Positions 7,671-30,704 of a stretch of 31,869 nt of DNA are shown one piece after another (position 1 is the first letter of the stretch; each line of letters opens with the position of its first letter). A program made the translations under genes and the position numbers. The notes beneath the pieces are model-generated. The model was not told where the DNA came from and searched no databases. It saw only the letters and a list, made by a program, of their open reading frames with translations. This DNA comes from a virus, in the IMG/VR virus record IMGVR_UViG_3300020174_000040, positions 1-31,869 of that record; one strand, given 5' to 3'.

Positions 7671-8213
7671 ATGACTAGAACAAAAAAGAAAAGCGAACAT
7701 TACGTTAATAATGCTGAATTTTTAGAAGCTATGAAAGCCTACAAGAAAGCTGTAAATAAATCTATAAGAGAAAAAAAAGAAAAACCACCAGTAACAGATT
7801 ACATTGGTAGTTGTTTTTTAAAAATAGCAAATCACTTATCATACAGACCAAATTTTATTAATTATACTTTTAGAGATGATATGATTAGTGATGGTATTGA
7901 AAACTGTTTACAATACTTGGACAATTTTAATCCTGCCAAATCAAATAATCCATTTGCTTATTTTACTCAAATCATTTATTTTGCCTTTATTAGAAGAATA
8001 CAAAAAGAAAAGAAACAAGTAACAATAAAACAAAAGTTAATTATGGATAACAATTATGATGATGTGGCTTTACAACCAGGCGATGATGGTGAATTTAAAA
8101 ATCAGTTTAAAGAATTTTTACAAAAGAATATGAGAATTGAAGAACCTACTAAAAAAGATAAACCAAAAACTAAAAAGAAAAAAAAGGTCGCATCAACTAA
8201 ATTCTTTGCTTAA
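7671..8213 (+). CDS. 55: Late-transcription sigma factor (T4 gp55 family)
   Basis: Binds host RNA polymerase core and directs it to TATAAATA late promoters, coupled to the sliding clamp in T4. At 180 residues it is close to T4 gp55 (185). The conserved core is at about 40-115: DYIGSCFLKIANHLSYRPNF, RDDMISDGIENCLQYLDNF and NPFAYFTQIIYFAFIRRIQK, which align closely with T4. T4 gp55 ends with a hydrophobic clamp-binding motif (SLDFLYE). This protein instead ends in a Lys-rich linker and STKFFA, possibly a short clamp-binding motif. The message appears leaderless. Confidence 0.93.
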   Translation: MTRTKKKSEHYVNNAEFLEAMKAYKKAVNKSIREKKEKPPVTDYIGSCFLKIANHLSYRPNFINYTFRDDMISDGIENCLQYLDNFNPAKSNNPFAYFTQIIYFAFIRRIQKEKKQVTIKQKLIMDNNYDDVALQPGDDGEFKNQFKEFLQKNMRIEEPTKKDKPKTKKKKKVASTKFFA

Positions 8214-11933: not shown

Positions 11934-13235
11934 ATGAGTAGTGAAGATCAATTTGTTGAAAATCAATACAAAGAGTGGTGTGAAAAAAACGATATATCTA
12001 AAGTAGAAGATATAGACCAAAACCATTTAAAATTAATGGTTGAAAAAGATTTAGCCTTTGTATCTAAAATGACCGTACAAGAATATACATTGTACGAGAA
12101 ATGGATAGAAGTACACGAAAAATATCCTACAGCAGAAACAAATAGTTTCTTTGATGATAAACCTGCCCTTGTCAATCCTGAACAAGAGGCCTTTATTAAA
12201 ACAGTTAAAAATAATATTTGGATTCCAGAATCACCAGAAGATATTGATAAGTTAGAACCTGTATTAGAATTTACAGATGATACAGAAACAAGATTTGATG
12301 GTTCTAAAAAGAGAGGTGATTTATCAGAAAAGTGGAATACATTAAGAACTTTCTTATCTACTATGAAAAACAATTCAAACATTGGTAGACAACTATTTTT
12401 TATAGTAAAAGATAATAGATCAGGCAAATACCTTGGTGTCATTTGTATTTCAGGTGACTTTATGGATTTAACACCACGTGATAAGTTTATAGGTTGGGAT
12501 AGACAAATTAAAACCTTTGAGGGTAAAATTAATCATACAGCAATAGGTTCTTCTATTGTACCAACACAACCATTAGGATATTCATTTACAGGTGGTAAAT
12601 TATTAGCGTATCTGTGTTTATCAGATGATGTACAAAGAATATGGGAAGAAAAATATGGTGATAAGTTAGTTGGCGTAACAACTACTAGTTTATACGGTAA
12701 GGCAAAGGCCAATACACTATCTCAATATGATGGTTTAAAATATTGGAAAAGAATGGGTTTTACAACTGGTTCTGTATCATTTCAACCTAGTAGAAAAGTT
12801 AGAAATATGATATGGACTTGGTTAAAGAAAAATCATACTAGAAAGTATTGGGAATGGCACGAAGCCAAAAGACCTAACGGCCAACCATTAAAAAGAGATC
12901 ATAAGAATAGATCACTAAACTTTACGTATTCAAAACTAGATATACCAAAAGAATATATTAGAACTGAACACCAAAGAGGTATCTACTTTACAAAATTATA
13001 TGAAAATACTAACGAATTTCTATGTGGTAAGATAGAGGCGAAAGATTTAGTTAAAAGATTTGATAGTAGTACCGAATCACTAGTTAAAGTATGGAAAGAA
13101 AAACACGCTAAAAAACGTGTAAAATCACTGGTTGAACAAGGCAGATATAATACAGACAGCCATTTTTATGATGAATTAATCTATATGAATTGGGAAGAAT
13201 GTAAGAATCACTTTCTAAATCAAGTAGGCCGATAA
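11934..13235 (+). CDS. DruA-like (DUF4338) domain protein, first copy
   Basis: A 433-residue protein. Residues about 151-280 match the pattern of DUF4338, the domain of DruA from the Druantia defence system: a GRQLFFIVKDNRSGKYLGVI strand pair, GWDR, the IVPTQPLGYSFTGGKLLA block (208-225), then VTTTSLYG (248-255) and a SQYDGLKYWKRMGFTTGS segment. The N-terminal 150 residues are acidic and helical; the C-terminal 150 are basic (WLKKNHTRKYWEWHEAKRP, VKVWKEKHAKKRVKSL). Biochemical function of the domain is not established to my knowledge. A shorter paralogue is at 29601. It has its own promoter and appears leaderless. Confidence 0.72.
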   Translation: MSSEDQFVENQYKEWCEKNDISKVEDIDQNHLKLMVEKDLAFVSKMTVQEYTLYEKWIEVHEKYPTAETNSFFDDKPALVNPEQEAFIKTVKNNIWIPESPEDIDKLEPVLEFTDDTETRFDGSKKRGDLSEKWNTLRTFLSTMKNNSNIGRQLFFIVKDNRSGKYLGVICISGDFMDLTPRDKFIGWDRQIKTFEGKINHTAIGSSIVPTQPLGYSFTGGKLLAYLCLSDDVQRIWEEKYGDKLVGVTTTSLYGKAKANTLSQYDGLKYWKRMGFTTGSVSFQPSRKVRNMIWTWLKKNHTRKYWEWHEAKRPNGQPLKRDHKNRSLNFTYSKLDIPKEYIRTEHQRGIYFTKLYENTNEFLCGKIEAKDLVKRFDSSTESLVKVWKEKHAKKRVKSLVEQGRYNTDSHFYDELIYMNWEECKNHFLNQVGR

Positions 13236-19549: not shown

Positions 19550-20366
19550 TTATCTTGGTGGTAAAAAGTTTCAGGCAAAATGGATTGCCTCCAACTTTCC
19601 AAAACATAATACTTATGTTGAACCATTTGGTGGTGCCTATTGGGTTTATTTTGTGGCCAACCACCAAATAGATCAGGCTCATACAAATGTATATAATGAT
19701 TTTAATAGAGATATAGCAAATATATTTCATTGTGCCAGACATAAAGATAGAGAATTTTTAAAATCTTTATTGTCATATGAACCACAACAAGAAGAAATTT
19801 TTAATCAATTTAAATCAGATTTAATACCATTTAATACAGACTTTGAACTAGGTGATATTGAAAGAGCCACAAAATATATCTACCTACAAACTCAAAGTTT
19901 TAGTGGTGATACTCTAAATGAAAAAACAAAGTTTGTAAATTTAAAAGGTAAATATAAATCAAAGTATCAACATTTTATAGATAAAATTAGTGATAAAAAA
20001 TGGTTATATTTTATTAAAGGCATAAATCATATTCATAACGAATCATATGAAACAGTTATTAATATGTATGATAAAGAAGATACATTATTTTATGTTGATC
20101 CTCCATACTATAAAATGGAAGATTACTATGTAAAAGACTTTCAAAGAAGCCAGCACGAAGACCTGGCCAATAAACTAAAAGAAATAAAAGGTAAATTTGT
20201 ATTGTCTTATTATGACTTTCCAGATTTACAAAAGTGGTTTCCAAAAGATCAATACACTTGGATAGAAAAAGAATTTAATAAACAAAACGCTAGTAAAAAC
20301 AAAGGCGCTGGTAAAGGTAAAGAAGTATTAATTATGAATTATAAACCAGCATTGACTTTAGAATAG
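19542..20366 (+). CDS. dam: DNA adenine methyltransferase, D12/Dam family
   Basis: N6-adenine methyltransferase of 274 residues (T4 Dam is 259). The SAM-binding FSYLGGK motif is at 2-8, TYVEPFGGAYWV (24-35) is the second family block, and the catalytic DPPYY is at 186-190. The start codon is GTG at 19542, inside the end of the DUF262 gene, so the two are probably translated together. Target sequence cannot be read from the protein; GATC is typical for the family. The end of the gene carries the tRNA-Gly promoter. Confidence 0.9.
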   Translation: MFSYLGGKKFQAKWIASNFPKHNTYVEPFGGAYWVYFVANHQIDQAHTNVYNDFNRDIANIFHCARHKDREFLKSLLSYEPQQEEIFNQFKSDLIPFNTDFELGDIERATKYIYLQTQSFSGDTLNEKTKFVNLKGKYKSKYQHFIDKISDKKWLYFIKGINHIHNESYETVINMYDKEDTLFYVDPPYYKMEDYYVKDFQRSQHEDLANKLKEIKGKFVLSYYDFPDLQKWFPKDQYTWIEKEFNKQNASKNKGAGKGKEVLIMNYKPALTLE

Positions 20367-20380
20367 CTTTGTGATATATT
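20352..20380 (+). promoter_or_regulatory. Sigma70-type promoter starting exactly at a tRNA-Gly
   Basis: TTGACT (20352-20357), 17-bp spacer, TATATT (20375-20380). Seven bases later comes the first base of the tRNA acceptor stem, so the primary transcript would need little or no 5' trimming. Confidence 0.8.
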
Positions 20381-20387
20381 AAATAAT

Positions 20388-20461
20388 GCGGATGTCGTAT
20401 AAAAGTAATACACTTGGTTTCCAACCAGGAAAAGATTGGGCAGTACAGTCCATCCGCTCCA
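20388..20461 (+). tRNA. trnG: tRNA-Gly(UCC) with altered D- and T-loops
   Basis: A 74-nt cloverleaf can be folded by hand. Acceptor GCGGATG/CATCCGC, discriminator T and encoded CCA; D-stem GTAT/ATAC with loop AAAAGTA; anticodon stem CTTGG/CCAGG with loop TTTCCAA (anticodon TCC); 4-nt variable loop; T-stem GATTG/CAGTC with loop GGCAGTA. The D-loop has A where G18 is expected but keeps G19. The T-loop lacks the TTCRA consensus, having G at 55 but keeping C56 and a purine at 57. First pair G-C and U73 suit glycine. It has its own promoter and precedes the peroxiredoxin gene by 22 bases. Confidence 0.82.
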
Positions 20462-21028: not shown

Positions 21029-21057
21029 TTGACAAAAAAACTATACTATGTTATATT
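21029..21057 (+). promoter_or_regulatory. Sigma70-type promoter of clamp gene 45
   Basis: TTGACA (21029-21034), 17-bp spacer, TATATT (21052-21057). The flanking ACATTGACA and ATGTTATATTATAA are nearly identical to those at 25664, defining a shared promoter type. Unlike 55, gene 45 keeps a normal leader with SD AAGGAG. Confidence 0.88.
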
Positions 21058-22127: not shown

Positions 22128-23072
22128 ATGTCAGATTTTTTGTGGGTTGAAAAATACCGTCCAAAAAAGATAAGCGATTGTATTCTTACCGAAGATTTAA
22201 AGAATACATTTACACAATTTCTAAAACAAAAAGAAATACCTAACCTATTGTTGTCTGGTACTGCCGGTACTGGTAAAACAACAGTAGCAAGAGCCTTATG
22301 TGAAGAACTAGGTAGTGATTATATCATTATTAATGGTTCAGACGAAGGCCGTCAAATAGATACATTAAGAAATAAGATTAAAAACTTTGCTTCTACTGTA
22401 TCTCTTACCGAAGACGCTAATCATAAAGTTGTCATAATTGATGAGGCAGATTATATGAACGCTGATAGTGTTCAGCCTGCTTTAAGAAACTTTATAGAAA
22501 CATTTTACAATAATTGTAGATTTATATTTACTTGTAATTATGTCAATAAGATAATACCAGCATTACATAGTCGTTGTACTGTCATTGATTTTGCCATAAA
22601 AAATGGTCAAAAGGTAAAGACGGCTACTGCCTTTATGAAACGATTAGGTGGTATACTTGATGATGAGAATATAGAATATGACAAAAAAGTATTGTCAGAA
22701 TTAATACAAAAGTATTATCCAGACTTTAGAAGAACTATCAACGAACTACAAAGATATTCAGTTAGAGGTAAGATTGATAGTGGTATTCTTTTTAGTCTAT
22801 CAGAAGCTAATACCAAAGAACTCATAGTATCATTAAAAGAAAAAAGATTTAATGATATGAGAAAATGGGTTGTTCAGAACTTGGACAAAGAGGCCTCTTT
22901 TCTATTTAAAACTATCTATGATGTTCTCTATACAGCACTAGACTCTAAATCTATTCCTCAATCTATATTAATTTTGGCTGGGTATCAATATAAATCTGCC
23001 TTTGTTGCTGACCAGGAGATAAATATGGTTGCCTGCCTTACAGAAATAATGGCGAGTTGTAAATTTAAATAA
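22128..23072 (+). CDS. 44: Clamp loader ATPase subunit (T4 gp44 family)
   Basis: AAA+ ATPase that, with gp62, opens and loads the gp45 clamp. It has 314 residues (T4 319). Walker A is GTAGTGKT at 44-51, Walker B is VVIIDEAD at 101-108, the SRC arginine-finger motif is at 148-150, and the RFC-like WVEKYRPKKISD block opens the protein. It lies 25 bases after the acidic gene, with a GTGAGG SD. Confidence 0.96.
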   Translation: MSDFLWVEKYRPKKISDCILTEDLKNTFTQFLKQKEIPNLLLSGTAGTGKTTVARALCEELGSDYIIINGSDEGRQIDTLRNKIKNFASTVSLTEDANHKVVIIDEADYMNADSVQPALRNFIETFYNNCRFIFTCNYVNKIIPALHSRCTVIDFAIKNGQKVKTATAFMKRLGGILDDENIEYDKKVLSELIQKYYPDFRRTINELQRYSVRGKIDSGILFSLSEANTKELIVSLKEKRFNDMRKWVVQNLDKEASFLFKTIYDVLYTALDSKSIPQSILILAGYQYKSAFVADQEINMVACLTEIMASCKFK

Positions 23073-23227: not shown

Positions 23228-23301
23228 GCGGATATGGTATAGAAGTATTACGCCACGTTGCCAACGTGGAGATGGCGGAGCGTTACCGCCTATCCGCTCC
23301 A
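23228..23301 (+). tRNA. trnG: tRNA-Gly(GCC) with altered D- and T-loops
   Basis: Second 74-nt cloverleaf. Acceptor GCGGATA/TATCCGC, T discriminator and encoded CCA; D-stem GTAT/TTAC with one T-T mismatch and loop AGAAGTA; anticodon stem CCACG/CGTGG with loop TTGCCAA (anticodon GCC); 4-nt variable loop AGAT; T-stem GGCGG/CCGCC with loop AGCGTTA. As in the UCC tRNA, position 18 is A, G19 and C56 are kept, position 55 is G, and A58 is lost. No separate promoter is clear; it probably comes from the 45-44 transcript. The gp62 start codon is only 8 bases after the CCA. Confidence 0.85.
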
Positions 23302-23309
23302 GAATTATT

Positions 23310-23702
23310 ATGTACGAATTGAAAGATTACTTAAACGCTATAAACTTTACTAAAGAAAATCTATTAGATACAGACGATTTAACGTGGGAAAAGAAGTATC
23401 CACCGTTTATCATTAACAAGTGTTTATCAATGCATTATGACAGTATAGCAGCTGCCAATGAAATGAATGGTTATCACTTTTTAGATAAGAAAGTCCAGTT
23501 TCATTTTTTGATAAATAGTATTAGAAAAAAGAAGCGATTTGGTGGCAAATGGTTATCACAAGCCAAATTGAAGAATTTAGAGTATGTCAAAGAATATTAT
23601 GGATATAGTAATGAGAAAGCAAAACAAGCACTTAGCATACTAAAAGACGAACAAATTGAATTTATAAAAGAGACCTTGAACAAAGGTGGGAGAAAAAAAT
23701 GA
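23310..23702 (+). CDS. 62: Clamp loader small subunit (T4 gp62 family)
   Basis: Small subunit that bridges the gp44 ATPase ring. The 130-residue protein matches the short marine T4-like gp62 rather than the 187-residue T4 form: KYPPFIINKCLSMHYDSIAAANEMN (about 29-53), LDKKVQFHFLINSIRKKKRFG, then EYYGYSNEKAKQALSIL. There is no SD between the tRNA CCA end (23301) and the ATG (23310). It ends with an ATGA overlap into regA. Confidence 0.88.
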   Translation: MYELKDYLNAINFTKENLLDTDDLTWEKKYPPFIINKCLSMHYDSIAAANEMNGYHFLDKKVQFHFLINSIRKKKRFGGKWLSQAKLKNLEYVKEYYGYSNEKAKQALSILKDEQIEFIKETLNKGGRKK

Positions 23703-24160
23703 GCGAAGAAATTGTAAACTGGTCGCCTGAAAGTATGTTAGAGGTCACAATCAAACAACCAGACGACTTCCTTAAAGTTAGAGAAACATTAACTAGAATT
23801 GGTGTAGCGTCCCGAAAAGACAAAACACTTTATCAATCGTGTCACATTTTACATAAACAAGGTAAATACTTTATAACACACTTTAAAGAACTATTTGCTT
23901 TAGACGGTAAAAAGGCTACATTGGTTGAAAACGATATACAAAGAAGAAATACTATTGCTATTCTTTTACAGGATTGGAATTTAATTGACATTGTAAAACC
24001 AGCAAAAGCTGAAAACAAAGCACCATTAAGTCAAATCAAAGTATTACCTTTTAAAGAAAAAAAAGAATGGACGCTATCAGCTAAATATAATATTGGTAAA
24101 AAAATTGATGAGAATAAGGAAGAAGTAAAAGATAGCGACAATGCAAGTACCGAAGTTTAA
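23699..24160 (+). CDS. regA: RegA translational repressor
   Basis: Binds early phage mRNAs near their start codons and blocks ribosome entry. The core MLEVTIKQPDDFLKVRETL ... KDKTLYQSCHILHKQGKYFI ... DIQRRNTIAILLQDW is very close to T4 RegA. At 153 residues it is longer than T4 RegA (122), with 12 extra N-terminal residues and a C-terminal extension rich in Lys and Glu. Starting at 23735 (residue 13) would give the T4-like N-terminus, but the ATGA overlap with gene 62 favours 23699. The C-terminal codons overlap the next gene by 20 bases. Confidence 0.94.
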   Translation: MSEEIVNWSPESMLEVTIKQPDDFLKVRETLTRIGVASRKDKTLYQSCHILHKQGKYFITHFKELFALDGKKATLVENDIQRRNTIAILLQDWNLIDIVKPAKAENKAPLSQIKVLPFKEKKEWTLSAKYNIGKKIDENKEEVKDSDNASTEV

Positions 24161-25661
24161 AGATTTTATTACTGAGCAAAATATAGAACGTAAAAATAAA
24201 CCGATTACGGTTGCAATTATTACGAAGTCTAATCCAAATGTTAAAAAACAAAAAGCTGGTGAAGCTCCTAAAAAAGAACTTACAGTTGGTTTAATTCAAA
24301 AGGCTTGTAAGAAAAAAGGTTTTGAGTGTGTTGTCATCAATACAAAACACGCTATCATCACTGGTAAAGACGAAGATAAGAATACTTTAACCATTTATAA
24401 TTATGATGGTAAAGATTCTGAACATACATTTATAGGTAAAGATACTGTTTGTATTACACGAGCAGGTTCTATTGAAGACGAAGCTGGATTATCATTAATA
24501 TCAGCCTTTCAAAACTCATCAGCATTTATGTTAAACACACGATCAGCTATGCTGACTTGTGATAATAAATTAACAACAGCATTACTATTTGAAAAGTTTG
24601 GTATACCTACACCAAGAACAGCGTTTGTATCAAATGAAAAAAACATAGAAGACGCTGTAAAATTAGTTGGTAATAAATTTCCTATCATACTTAAAACATT
24701 AACTGGTACTCAAGGTATTGGTGTAATTAAAATTGAAAGTATGGATAGTTTAGTATCTACAATACAAGCATTATGGAAACACGATGCAGAAGTATTAATA
24801 CAAGAATATATGGAAGTAGATGGTGATGTAAGAACTTTAGTCGTAGATAATAAGATATTTGCGTCAACAAATAGAGTTGCCGCTAAAGGTGAGTTTAGAT
24901 CCAACACTCATAGAGGCGCTACACCAAAACCATATAAGTTAAGTGAAGAAGAACAAGAAATCATTTTAAAAGCCGCTAGAGCGTCCAAAGCGTACCTTGT
25001 AGGCGTAGATCATATCATTTACAAGGGTAAACCTTATGTATTAGAAATCAATGGTAGTCCAGGTTCAGGTGCCGAATATGAAGGTTATCAATATAAAGAT
25101 TACTATTCAGAACCAGAACCATCAGGCGCTATCGGTGGCGAAGAATTAATGTATGATATTATAGATTGGGTATCAAAAAGAAGTCATTGGGATAGACAAG
25201 CAAATAGTGAATGTGGTTGGTTAGAAACTGTTGAACTAGATGAACTAGGAAAAGTTAGAGCAAAATTTGATACAGGAAATGGTTCACTTGCTTGTGCCTT
25301 ACACGCTGATGAAATTTTAGAAGATGGTAAAATAGTTAAATGGAAATATGACGGAAAAACTCATACTAAACCAAGACACGGTACAAGTAAAGTTTATAGA
25401 GCAAATGCTGACGGTGAAGAGCCATCAGAAATTAGACCAACGATATTATTAGATATTACATTTAATGGTTTTACATATAAAGATATTGAATTTGGTTTAG
25501 ACCAAAGACCACGATCAGGCTCAGATATATTAGTTAATAGAGAATTAATGCGACAAATGAATGTAAGTGTCAACCCTAATAGAACATTTGTATTAAGTAA
25601 GAGATTAAGACCTATTGAAAAAGAAGGTAAACAAGACAAAGTGGGTTTTGAAAAGAAATAA
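24141..25661 (+). CDS. rimK: RimK-like ATP-grasp ligase fused to a RimB-like protease domain
   Basis: A 506-residue fusion. Residues about 105-345 form an ATP-grasp ligase of the RimK type: DNKLTTALLFEKFGIPTPRT (141-160), PIILKTLTGTQGIGV (181-195) with ATP-binding Lys, QEYMEVDGDVRTLVV, and the metal-binding YVLEINGSPG (299-308). Residues about 360-490 match the RimB/retropepsin-like family (formerly annotated as an ATP-dependent zinc protease), with KVRAKFDTGNGSLACALHAD placing the catalytic D-T-G at 377-379. RimK adds Glu residues to the tail of ribosomal protein bS6; RimB works on the same tail. Together with phage bS21 this suggests ribosome modification, though other substrates are possible. 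Confidence 0.88.
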   Translation: MQVPKFKDFITEQNIERKNKPITVAIITKSNPNVKKQKAGEAPKKELTVGLIQKACKKKGFECVVINTKHAIITGKDEDKNTLTIYNYDGKDSEHTFIGKDTVCITRAGSIEDEAGLSLISAFQNSSAFMLNTRSAMLTCDNKLTTALLFEKFGIPTPRTAFVSNEKNIEDAVKLVGNKFPIILKTLTGTQGIGVIKIESMDSLVSTIQALWKHDAEVLIQEYMEVDGDVRTLVVDNKIFASTNRVAAKGEFRSNTHRGATPKPYKLSEEEQEIILKAARASKAYLVGVDHIIYKGKPYVLEINGSPGSGAEYEGYQYKDYYSEPEPSGAIGGEELMYDIIDWVSKRSHWDRQANSECGWLETVELDELGKVRAKFDTGNGSLACALHADEILEDGKIVKWKYDGKTHTKPRHGTSKVYRANADGEEPSEIRPTILLDITFNGFTYKDIEFGLDQRPRSGSDILVNRELMRQMNVSVNPNRTFVLSKRLRPIEKEGKQDKVGFEKK

Positions 25662-29516: not shown

Positions 29517-29620
29517 TTGAAATGTTTGGAGTAGGATTAATGGTTGCCATTTTTATGGTAATAGTGTATATTATACCTATTTGGTTATTGAGAAAATGGA
29601 ATGATGAAGACCCTAAATAA
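29513..29620 (+). CDS. Tiny membrane protein (35 aa)
   Basis: The frame starts by ATGA overlap with the MT-A70 stop. The product MIEMFGVGLMVAIFMVIVYI... is one membrane span (residues about 5-27) followed by a charged tail (RKWNDEDPK). Its end overlaps the DruA-like gene by 20 bases. The coupling and clean single-span design support a real peptide. Function is unknown. Confidence 0.55.
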   Translation: MIEMFGVGLMVAIFMVIVYIIPIWLLRKWNDEDPK

Positions 29621-30704
29621 AGAACAAGCCCTATATTGTGCTAATATATTCAATGACTATTTTAGTCAGTTTGATAGAATAGATCAGTATATGAGAGATC
29701 AAAAGTTATCTCAATTAGAAACAAATAATTCTGCTGGTACATTATTTGATGATGGTCCTGAAGAAGACTTGTTTAATAGTGACATATCACCTGAAGAAAT
29801 GAACTTTGAAATAAAAGAGATTACTAATGAAAGATTTGATAAACTTTTAAATATGGTTTCTTCACATACAAATATGTCAAATGTTCCAGGTAAGAACTTA
29901 AAGATAGTTGTAATGGAAACTAATACACAAAAGATAGTTGGTTTTATTAGACTATCATCTCCTGTAATTAATATGAAACCTCGTAATGAGATGTTAGGAC
30001 AAGTGCCTGATTTAAAATCATTTAACAAAACTTCTATTATGGGTTTTGTAATTGTGCCTGTACAACCATTTGGTTTTAATTATTTGGGTGGTAAACTATT
30101 GGCCGCTGTTTGTTGTTCACACGAAGTAAGACAAAAGATGAATGTTAAATATGATATGAATATGGCCTTATTTGAAACAACATCTTTATATGGTAATAGC
30201 AAATCATCAAGCCAATATGATGGTATGAAACCATTTTTAAGATATAAAGGCTTAACTGATAGTGACTTTATACCTTTAATACACGGTAAACCCTACCACG
30301 ATTTGGCTAAGTTTGTAGAAAACAATATAGGCAAATTAGTAAAAGATGACGCTTCAAGTAAAAAACTAAAACTTACTATGGCTATTATTGGTTTAGTTAA
30401 AAGAAGTTTAGATGGTACAGATTTAGAAAATTTTAACACAACTATTAGTAATGCTAAAAAACTTACAGAAAGAAAAAGATATTATGCTTGTAATTATGGT
30501 ATTAAAAACTATATCAATATTGTAAATGGTACAGAAACAGATATAGTCAAAGATGAAAACTACGACAAACATAACCTAAATAATATTATAGAGTGGTGGA
30601 AAAAGAAAGCAACCAATCGTTATAATAATCTTAAAAATGAAAATCGTTTGAGGAAAGAACTTGAAATATGGTCACCGGATGCACAAATACAGATAATCAG
30701 ATGA
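29601..30704 (+). CDS. DruA-like (DUF4338) domain protein, second copy
   Basis: A 367-residue paralogue of the 11934 product. The shared core (about 99-220) has KIVVMETNTQKIVGFIRLSS, IVPVQPFGFNYLGGKLLAAV (151-170), FETTSLYG (191-198) and SSQYDGMKPFLRYKGLTDSDF. Compared with the first copy the IVPxQPxG....GGKLLA and TTSLYG blocks are almost unchanged, while both termini differ. The N-terminal 95 residues are acidic and helical and the C-terminal 120 are basic. The start is ATG 29601 or the adjacent 29604. Function of the domain is unproven; it is known from the Druantia anti-phage system. Confidence 0.7.
   Translation: MMKTLNKEQALYCANIFNDYFSQFDRIDQYMRDQKLSQLETNNSAGTLFDDGPEEDLFNSDISPEEMNFEIKEITNERFDKLLNMVSSHTNMSNVPGKNLKIVVMETNTQKIVGFIRLSSPVINMKPRNEMLGQVPDLKSFNKTSIMGFVIVPVQPFGFNYLGGKLLAAVCCSHEVRQKMNVKYDMNMALFETTSLYGNSKSSSQYDGMKPFLRYKGLTDSDFIPLIHGKPYHDLAKFVENNIGKLVKDDASSKKLKLTMAIIGLVKRSLDGTDLENFNTTISNAKKLTERKRYYACNYGIKNYINIVNGTETDIVKDENYDKHNLNNIIEWWKKKATNRYNNLKNENRLRKELEIWSPDAQIQIIR

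Follow-up and report, generated by a model that had tools for sequence, protein, structure and literature searches.

A18 and G55 in place of G18 and U55 in two phage tRNA-Gly genes: a candidate alternative tRNA elbow

Few positions in tRNA are as conserved as 18 and 55, and Psi55, which is made by TruB, is near-universal in bacteria. The window analyzed here, a 31.9-kb fragment (31,869 nucleotides) of a T4-like phage akin to the Pelagibacter phages Mosig and HTVC008M, carries two tRNA-Gly genes in which these positions are occupied by A18 and G55 (Table 1). In both genes, the G18-U55 and U54-A58 combinations of the canonical elbow are absent, while G19-C56 is present. The locus raises the question of whether such genes encode working tRNAs and, if so, what holds their elbow together and why the usual contact was replaced.

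We consider it probable, judging from sequence, that both window genes give rise to ordinary tRNAs that accept glycine and serve in translation, their elbow being built by A18-G55 in place of G18-Psi55. The exposed G19-C56 pair, described in PMC4810234 as the face recognized by the ribosome and many other factors, would keep the D loop and T loop locked. In the layer beneath it, a putative A18-G55 contact would replace G18-Psi55, and A54/U58 or G54/G58 would take the place of the T-loop closing pair U54-A58. TruB cannot pseudouridylate G55, A18 offers no Gm18 site, and neither A54 nor G54 can become m5U, so that the fold has to stand without Psi55, Gm18, and m5U54. We infer that the tRNAs are charged and used in phage-infected cells, where the GCC tRNA would read GGC and GGU, and the UCC tRNA would read GGA and GGG.

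Two glycine tRNA genes and their neighborhood

Both genes exceed the RF00005 gathering threshold of 29 bits as full-length cloverleaves (positions 1-71). The GCC gene, also called as tRNA-Gly(gcc) by ARAGORN, reaches 51.9 bits (E 1.5e-8) against the Rfam tRNA model, and the UCC gene, overlooked by ARAGORN, reaches 39.3 bits (E 4.4e-5). The cloverleaf of the former has an MFE of -27.5 kcal/mol (z -2.3; 3 of 200 shuffles equally good) and the fold of the latter an MFE of -22.2 (z -3.5; 0 of 200 shuffles as good). Stems pair in both tRNAs, and their acceptor, discriminator, and anticodon bases are of the glycine type. The bacterial glycine identity set (G1-C72, C2-G71, G3-C70, U73, C35, and C36) is complete in both genes. 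ARAGORN and Rfam found no third tRNA in the 31.9-kb record, itself a fragment.

Table 1. Coordinates of the tRNA genes and associated features, in the window unless another genome is named
Feature	Position	Strand	Description	Basis
tRNA-Gly(GCC)	23228..23301	+	A18/G19/G55/C56 elbow, A54/U58; U73; encoded CCA at 23299-23301	ARAGORN, Rfam tRNA, sequence, fold
GCC tRNA D loop	23241..23247	+	AGAAGUA (A14 G15 A16 A18 G19 U20 A21); A18 = 23244, G19 = 23245	sequence
GCC tRNA anticodon	23260..23262	+	GCC	
GCC tRNA T loop	23279..23285	+	AGCGUUA (A54 G55 C56 G57 U58 U59 A60); A54 = 23279, G55 = 23280, C56 = 23281, U58 = 23283 (A58 lost)	sequence
Companion tRNA-Gly(UCC)	20388..20461	+	same A18/G19/G55/C56 elbow, G54/G58; encoded CCA	Rfam, sequence
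UCC tRNA D loop	20401..20407	+	AAAAGUA; A18 = 20404, G19 = 20405	
UCC tRNA T loop	20439..20445	+	GGCAGUA (G54 G55 C56 A57 G58 U59 A60)	
Predicted promoter ahead of UCC tRNA	20352..20380	+	extended -10, sigma70-like, TTGACT-17-TATATT, TG before -10; ends 7 nt before the tRNA	
gp44, clamp-loader large subunit	22128..23072	+	upstream of GCC tRNA; constant marker of the syntenic slot	PHROG 168, E 3e-125; synteny
gp62, clamp-loader small subunit	23310..23702	+	downstream of GCC tRNA	PHROG 225; synteny
tRNA-Gly(ACC), HTVC008M	91140-91213 (L004 10258-10331)		unannotated	
tRNA-Gly(ACC), Mosig	7779-7852 (L003 19237-19310)	minus	overlapped by 'hypothetical protein'	
tRNA-Lys(UUU), bacterium G014	L402 12112		chromosomal, A18/G55	
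tRNA-Gly(CCC), bacterium G014	L403 12144	minus	chromosomal, A18/G55	

The initial annotation had reported A18, G19, G55, and C56 with loss of A58 in both genes, and its coordinates and sequence proved exact. It had also proposed that the stems are maintained by pairing while the loops deviate jointly, which is borne out by the compensatory changes found in the stems. The loop changes are not due to chance, since near-identical T loops occur in dozens of relatives and the association between positions 18 and 55 is near-perfect. That these genes are decaying relics or misfolded annotation artefacts is scarcely credible. The UCC copy was indeed missed by ARAGORN, and the HTVC008M and Mosig copies were overlooked in annotation; nevertheless, the identity elements, encoded CCA, promoter motifs, compensatory stem changes, and synteny conserved across relatives all argue against decay, and conservation across diverged contigs rules this reading out.

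The anticodon ACC (A34) of the overlooked copies is rare in bacteria. Published surveys list 0 tRNAs for HTVC008M (PMC7029224) and 3 for Mosig (PMC7892664); each of the two genomes carries, in addition, a tRNA-Gly(ACC) with the A18/G55 elbow. Phage tRNA inventories obtained with ARAGORN or tRNAscan-SE thus miss genes.

The UCC tRNA is flanked by genes encoding a DNA adenine methylase and a peroxiredoxin. A promoter motif similar to that listed for it is found ahead of 43 of the 68 distinct UCC/ACC copies, as opposed to 0 of 16 GCC copies, and the GCC tRNA is probably read through from gp44. A second extended -10 promoter-like site (21029-21057) lies ahead of the sliding clamp gene. GGU accounts for 68% of glycine codons in the window, a U bias stronger than in the other four-fold boxes, and the two tRNAs fit this GGU-heavy demand as gauged from window codons. 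At most other four-fold boxes of the window coding sequence, U and A are about equally frequent. Elsewhere in the window, DruA-like domains (PF14236) occur in two proteins (11934-13235 and 29601-30704), and the RimK-like ATP-grasp ligase encoded at 24141-25661 carries a long extension at its C terminus; at the matching place, Mosig carries a 'putative glutathione synthetase'.

Positions 18 and 55 across phage tRNAs

Several hundred fetched phage loci were scanned with a structural descriptor, which met window-type T loops many times. The full collection comprises 143 distinct A18/G55 tRNAs for 18 amino acids, compared with 515 distinct G18/U55 tRNAs; besides Gly, the former include tRNAs for Glu, Asp, Asn, Tyr, Phe, Lys, Val, Thr, Cys, Gln, Pro, Leu, Ser, His, Ile, and Ala. 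On contigs with large tRNA arrays, A18/G55 tRNAs of many amino-acid specificities stand alongside canonical ones. All 55 Gly copies start with GCG, and U73 and an encoded CCA are present in 54 of them; across amino acids, the discriminator base 73 largely tracks that of the corresponding canonical tRNA. No A18/G55 tRNA was found in T4, JSF10, phiCbK, or the 595-kb phage LR756511, and blastn with the GCC copy, the UCC copy, or a Thr copy retrieved no named phage with the elbow besides HTVC008M and Mosig.

The occurrence of A18/G55 in tRNAs for 18 amino acids, on other phage contigs, ends the glycine-specific reading, in which the initial annotation had seen the purpose of two glycine isoacceptors; the elbow is also found in a Lys tRNA, besides a Gly tRNA, of the bacterium G014 described below. 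A more elaborate version, in which a non-translating tRNA donates glycyl groups to a transferase, after the manner of staphylococcal cell-wall tRNA-Gly, and the odd elbow keeps it off EF-Tu or the ribosome, is very improbable. It draws on the RimK-like ATP-grasp gene nearby and on the pelagimyophages, in which the elbow is carried by glycine tRNAs while the Pro, Arg, and Leu tRNAs of Mosig are canonical. Against it stand the sharing of the elbow among 18 amino acids, the retention of G19-C56, and the finding that the one AAA-reading tRNA detected in G014 has this elbow. Moreover, aminoacyl-tRNA is not a usual substrate of ATP-grasp ligases, and no aminoacyl-tRNA transferase (FemXAB-like) was found among the scanned proteins, which are part of those encoded on this fragment record.

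To return to translating tRNAs with a replaced contact, the two positions change together. In a set of 522 distinct tRNAs, assembled before loci were selected for the two positions together and excluding loci whose search pattern fixes both 18 and 55, 92 carry A18/G55 and 414 G18/U55, with only two A18/U55 and two G18/G55; these counts ignore sequence relatedness, and related sequences inflate them. Among loci fetched by acceptor pattern or clamp loader only, without reference to the elbow, mutual information places 18-55 among the top non-stem column pairs, together with the tertiary pairs 15-48 and 54-58. Two pairwise comparisons are independent of the inflated counts: Leu-UAG tRNAs with A18/G55 (L312) and G18/U55 (L316) are 97% identical outside the elbow, and the Gly-GCC tRNAs of L389 and L187, the closest two in the gp44-gp62 slot, show 93% identity when the loops are set aside, their differences there being compensated pairs (7-66 and 51-63).

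The slot between gp44 and gp62 presents a series from the canonical through an intermediate to the window form. It holds a canonical GCC tRNA in L389, A18/G55 with U54-A58 still present at nine loci, and A54/U58 with the T loop AGCGUAA in L255, and it is also occupied by the window form itself. Among A18/G55 tRNAs, A15/A48 accompanies G54/G58 in most copies, and A60 is found in both the A54/U58 and G54/G58 types. Variation in phage-array tRNAs (L312-L318) extends to further tertiary pairs: some of these tRNAs have U8-A14 swapped to A8-U14 and some U54-A58 changed to A54-U58 with G18/U55 retained.

The loop uridines at positions 16, 54, and 55 are often missing in A18/G55 tRNAs, as might be expected if the elbow made phage tRNAs invisible to a defence or turnover factor of the host for which G18/Psi55 or loop uridines are the signal, translation continuing while host tRNAs are destroyed. 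We regard this explanation as unlikely. Phage tRNAs can evade tRNA-targeting defences through anticodon-loop changes (PMC10264068), and other phage tRNAs replace the tRNA that is lost (PMC11555353, PMC12409363). The anticodon loop, however, is where most known phage-defence tRNases cut, and in A18/G55 tRNAs this loop looks ordinary. In addition, Psi55 is not required for AriB cleavage, the papers searched do not mention an elbow determinant, and the bacterial A18/G55 tRNAs would be left unexplained.

A bacterium lacking truB

A D-arm/T-loop pattern for A18/G55 gave three matches across bacterial and archaeal genomes totaling 257 Gb, a number that is no measure of frequency in cells, since the pattern covers one D-arm type. 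A host origin of the phage tRNA was considered and rejected, as two of these matches look phage: L325, which has gp44, is a contig of a pelagimyophage, and an ORF on L324 reads, as judged by eye, as a phage capsid protein. The third match, G014, alone is a true bacterium. No elbow tRNA was found in relatives of the alphaproteobacterial bin, in a search run without a positive control.

G014 is a 400-kb rumen MAG in which 40 tRNA genes are accompanied by ribosomal and synthetase-like ones, and its Lys-UUU and Gly-CCC tRNAs carry A18/G55 (Table 1). No second Lys-UUU was found in this single MAG, and 10.8% of the G014 codons sampled are AAA; if the assembly is complete, the Lys-UUU tRNA must therefore work in translation. 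In two relatives of G014, Lys-UUU is canonical, and no plasmid matched the G014 Lys tRNA. Two models failed to find TruB in G014, although it is present in 28 of 28 relatives. The gene is cleanly missing between rbfA and ribF in the operon nusA-infB-rbfA-ribF-rpsO, so that its loss is not an assembly gap. Most G014 tRNAs remain G18/U55, so that truB loss does not force the switch. As a natural experiment in one genome, G014 supports an elbow independent of Psi55. Phage hosts probably possess TruB, which was detected in 133 of 142 sampled alphaproteobacteria, and the phages are thus probably not facing a missing enzyme.

These data bear on whether the elbow has an adaptive meaning at all. It may instead be functional but neutral, a fitness valley having been crossed in rapidly evolving tRNA genes of phages by a compensatory double change at 18 and 55 and the new state then kept; we give this account somewhat less than an even chance. 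The pattern is as expected from compensatory evolution, canonical and alternative copies share genomes, and only two G014 tRNAs were converted despite the loss of truB. On the other hand, many amino-acid families and a bacterium show the switch anew, and half-way states make up only 4 of 510 assigned tRNAs, which together suggest a favored state rather than rare accidents. Independence from modification would be the advantage, and we weigh it about equally against simple compensatory drift.

Comparison with known tRNAs

The A18/G55 elbow looks like an overlooked second way of building a tRNA. In its broadest form, our proposal is that A18-G55 constitutes a second self-sufficient elbow code, standing without modification by TruB, TrmA, or TrmH, which arose repeatedly in phages, where it covers 18 amino acids, as well as in a bacterium without truB, and which is under-reported by finders built on canonical loops; we judge this as apt to fail as to hold. 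If it is correct, the tRNA content of some phages is underestimated. A recurrent, covarying replacement at 18 and 55 shows what the contact is for, and A18/G55 offers a direct route to test whether tRNAs need Psi55. In open-licence full text, we found no paper naming A18, G55, tRNA, and bacteriophage together, and passages on tRNA in reviews do not describe an A18-G55 pair; work in subscription journals, for example on selected suppressor tRNAs, may exist.

Among the familiar relatives are the canonical elongator tRNA-Gly of bacteria and phages, such as T4 tRNA-Gly UCC, which is identical to the window UCC tRNA at 45 of 74 positions. These last two share the cloverleaf, the acceptor GCGGAU, U8-C9, the D stem GUAU, the anticodon UCC, U73, CCA, and G19 with C56; in contrast to T4, the window tRNA has A18/G55 for G18/U55 and G54/G58 for U54-A58. 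Glycine tRNAs with altered D and T loops are also known from Staphylococcus, in which the non-translating peptidoglycan tRNA-Gly has lost the guanines at 18/19 and has weak T stems. Unlike these, the phage tRNAs keep G19-C56, covary at 18/55, and span 18 amino acids; in the window, G19 is present, and the T stem of the GCC copy is GGCGG/CCGCC.

A likeness of another kind is found in eukaryotic tRNA-Ala(AGC), in which, according to PMC7566577, R15/A48 and A54/A58 are coupled, with a purine at position 60, much as the phage G54/G58 accompanies A15/A48 and A60. The same paper states that such unusual pairs are absent from bacterial tRNAs and reports neither A18 nor G55. Finally, tRNA-Pyl and type II mitochondrial tRNAs are described in PMC7609411 as natural, working tRNAs without the G18-Psi55 contact. 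In these, the whole G18-G19/TPsiC motif is lost and loops or arms are restructured, whereas the phage tRNAs keep the cloverleaf and G19-C56, with one contact replaced.
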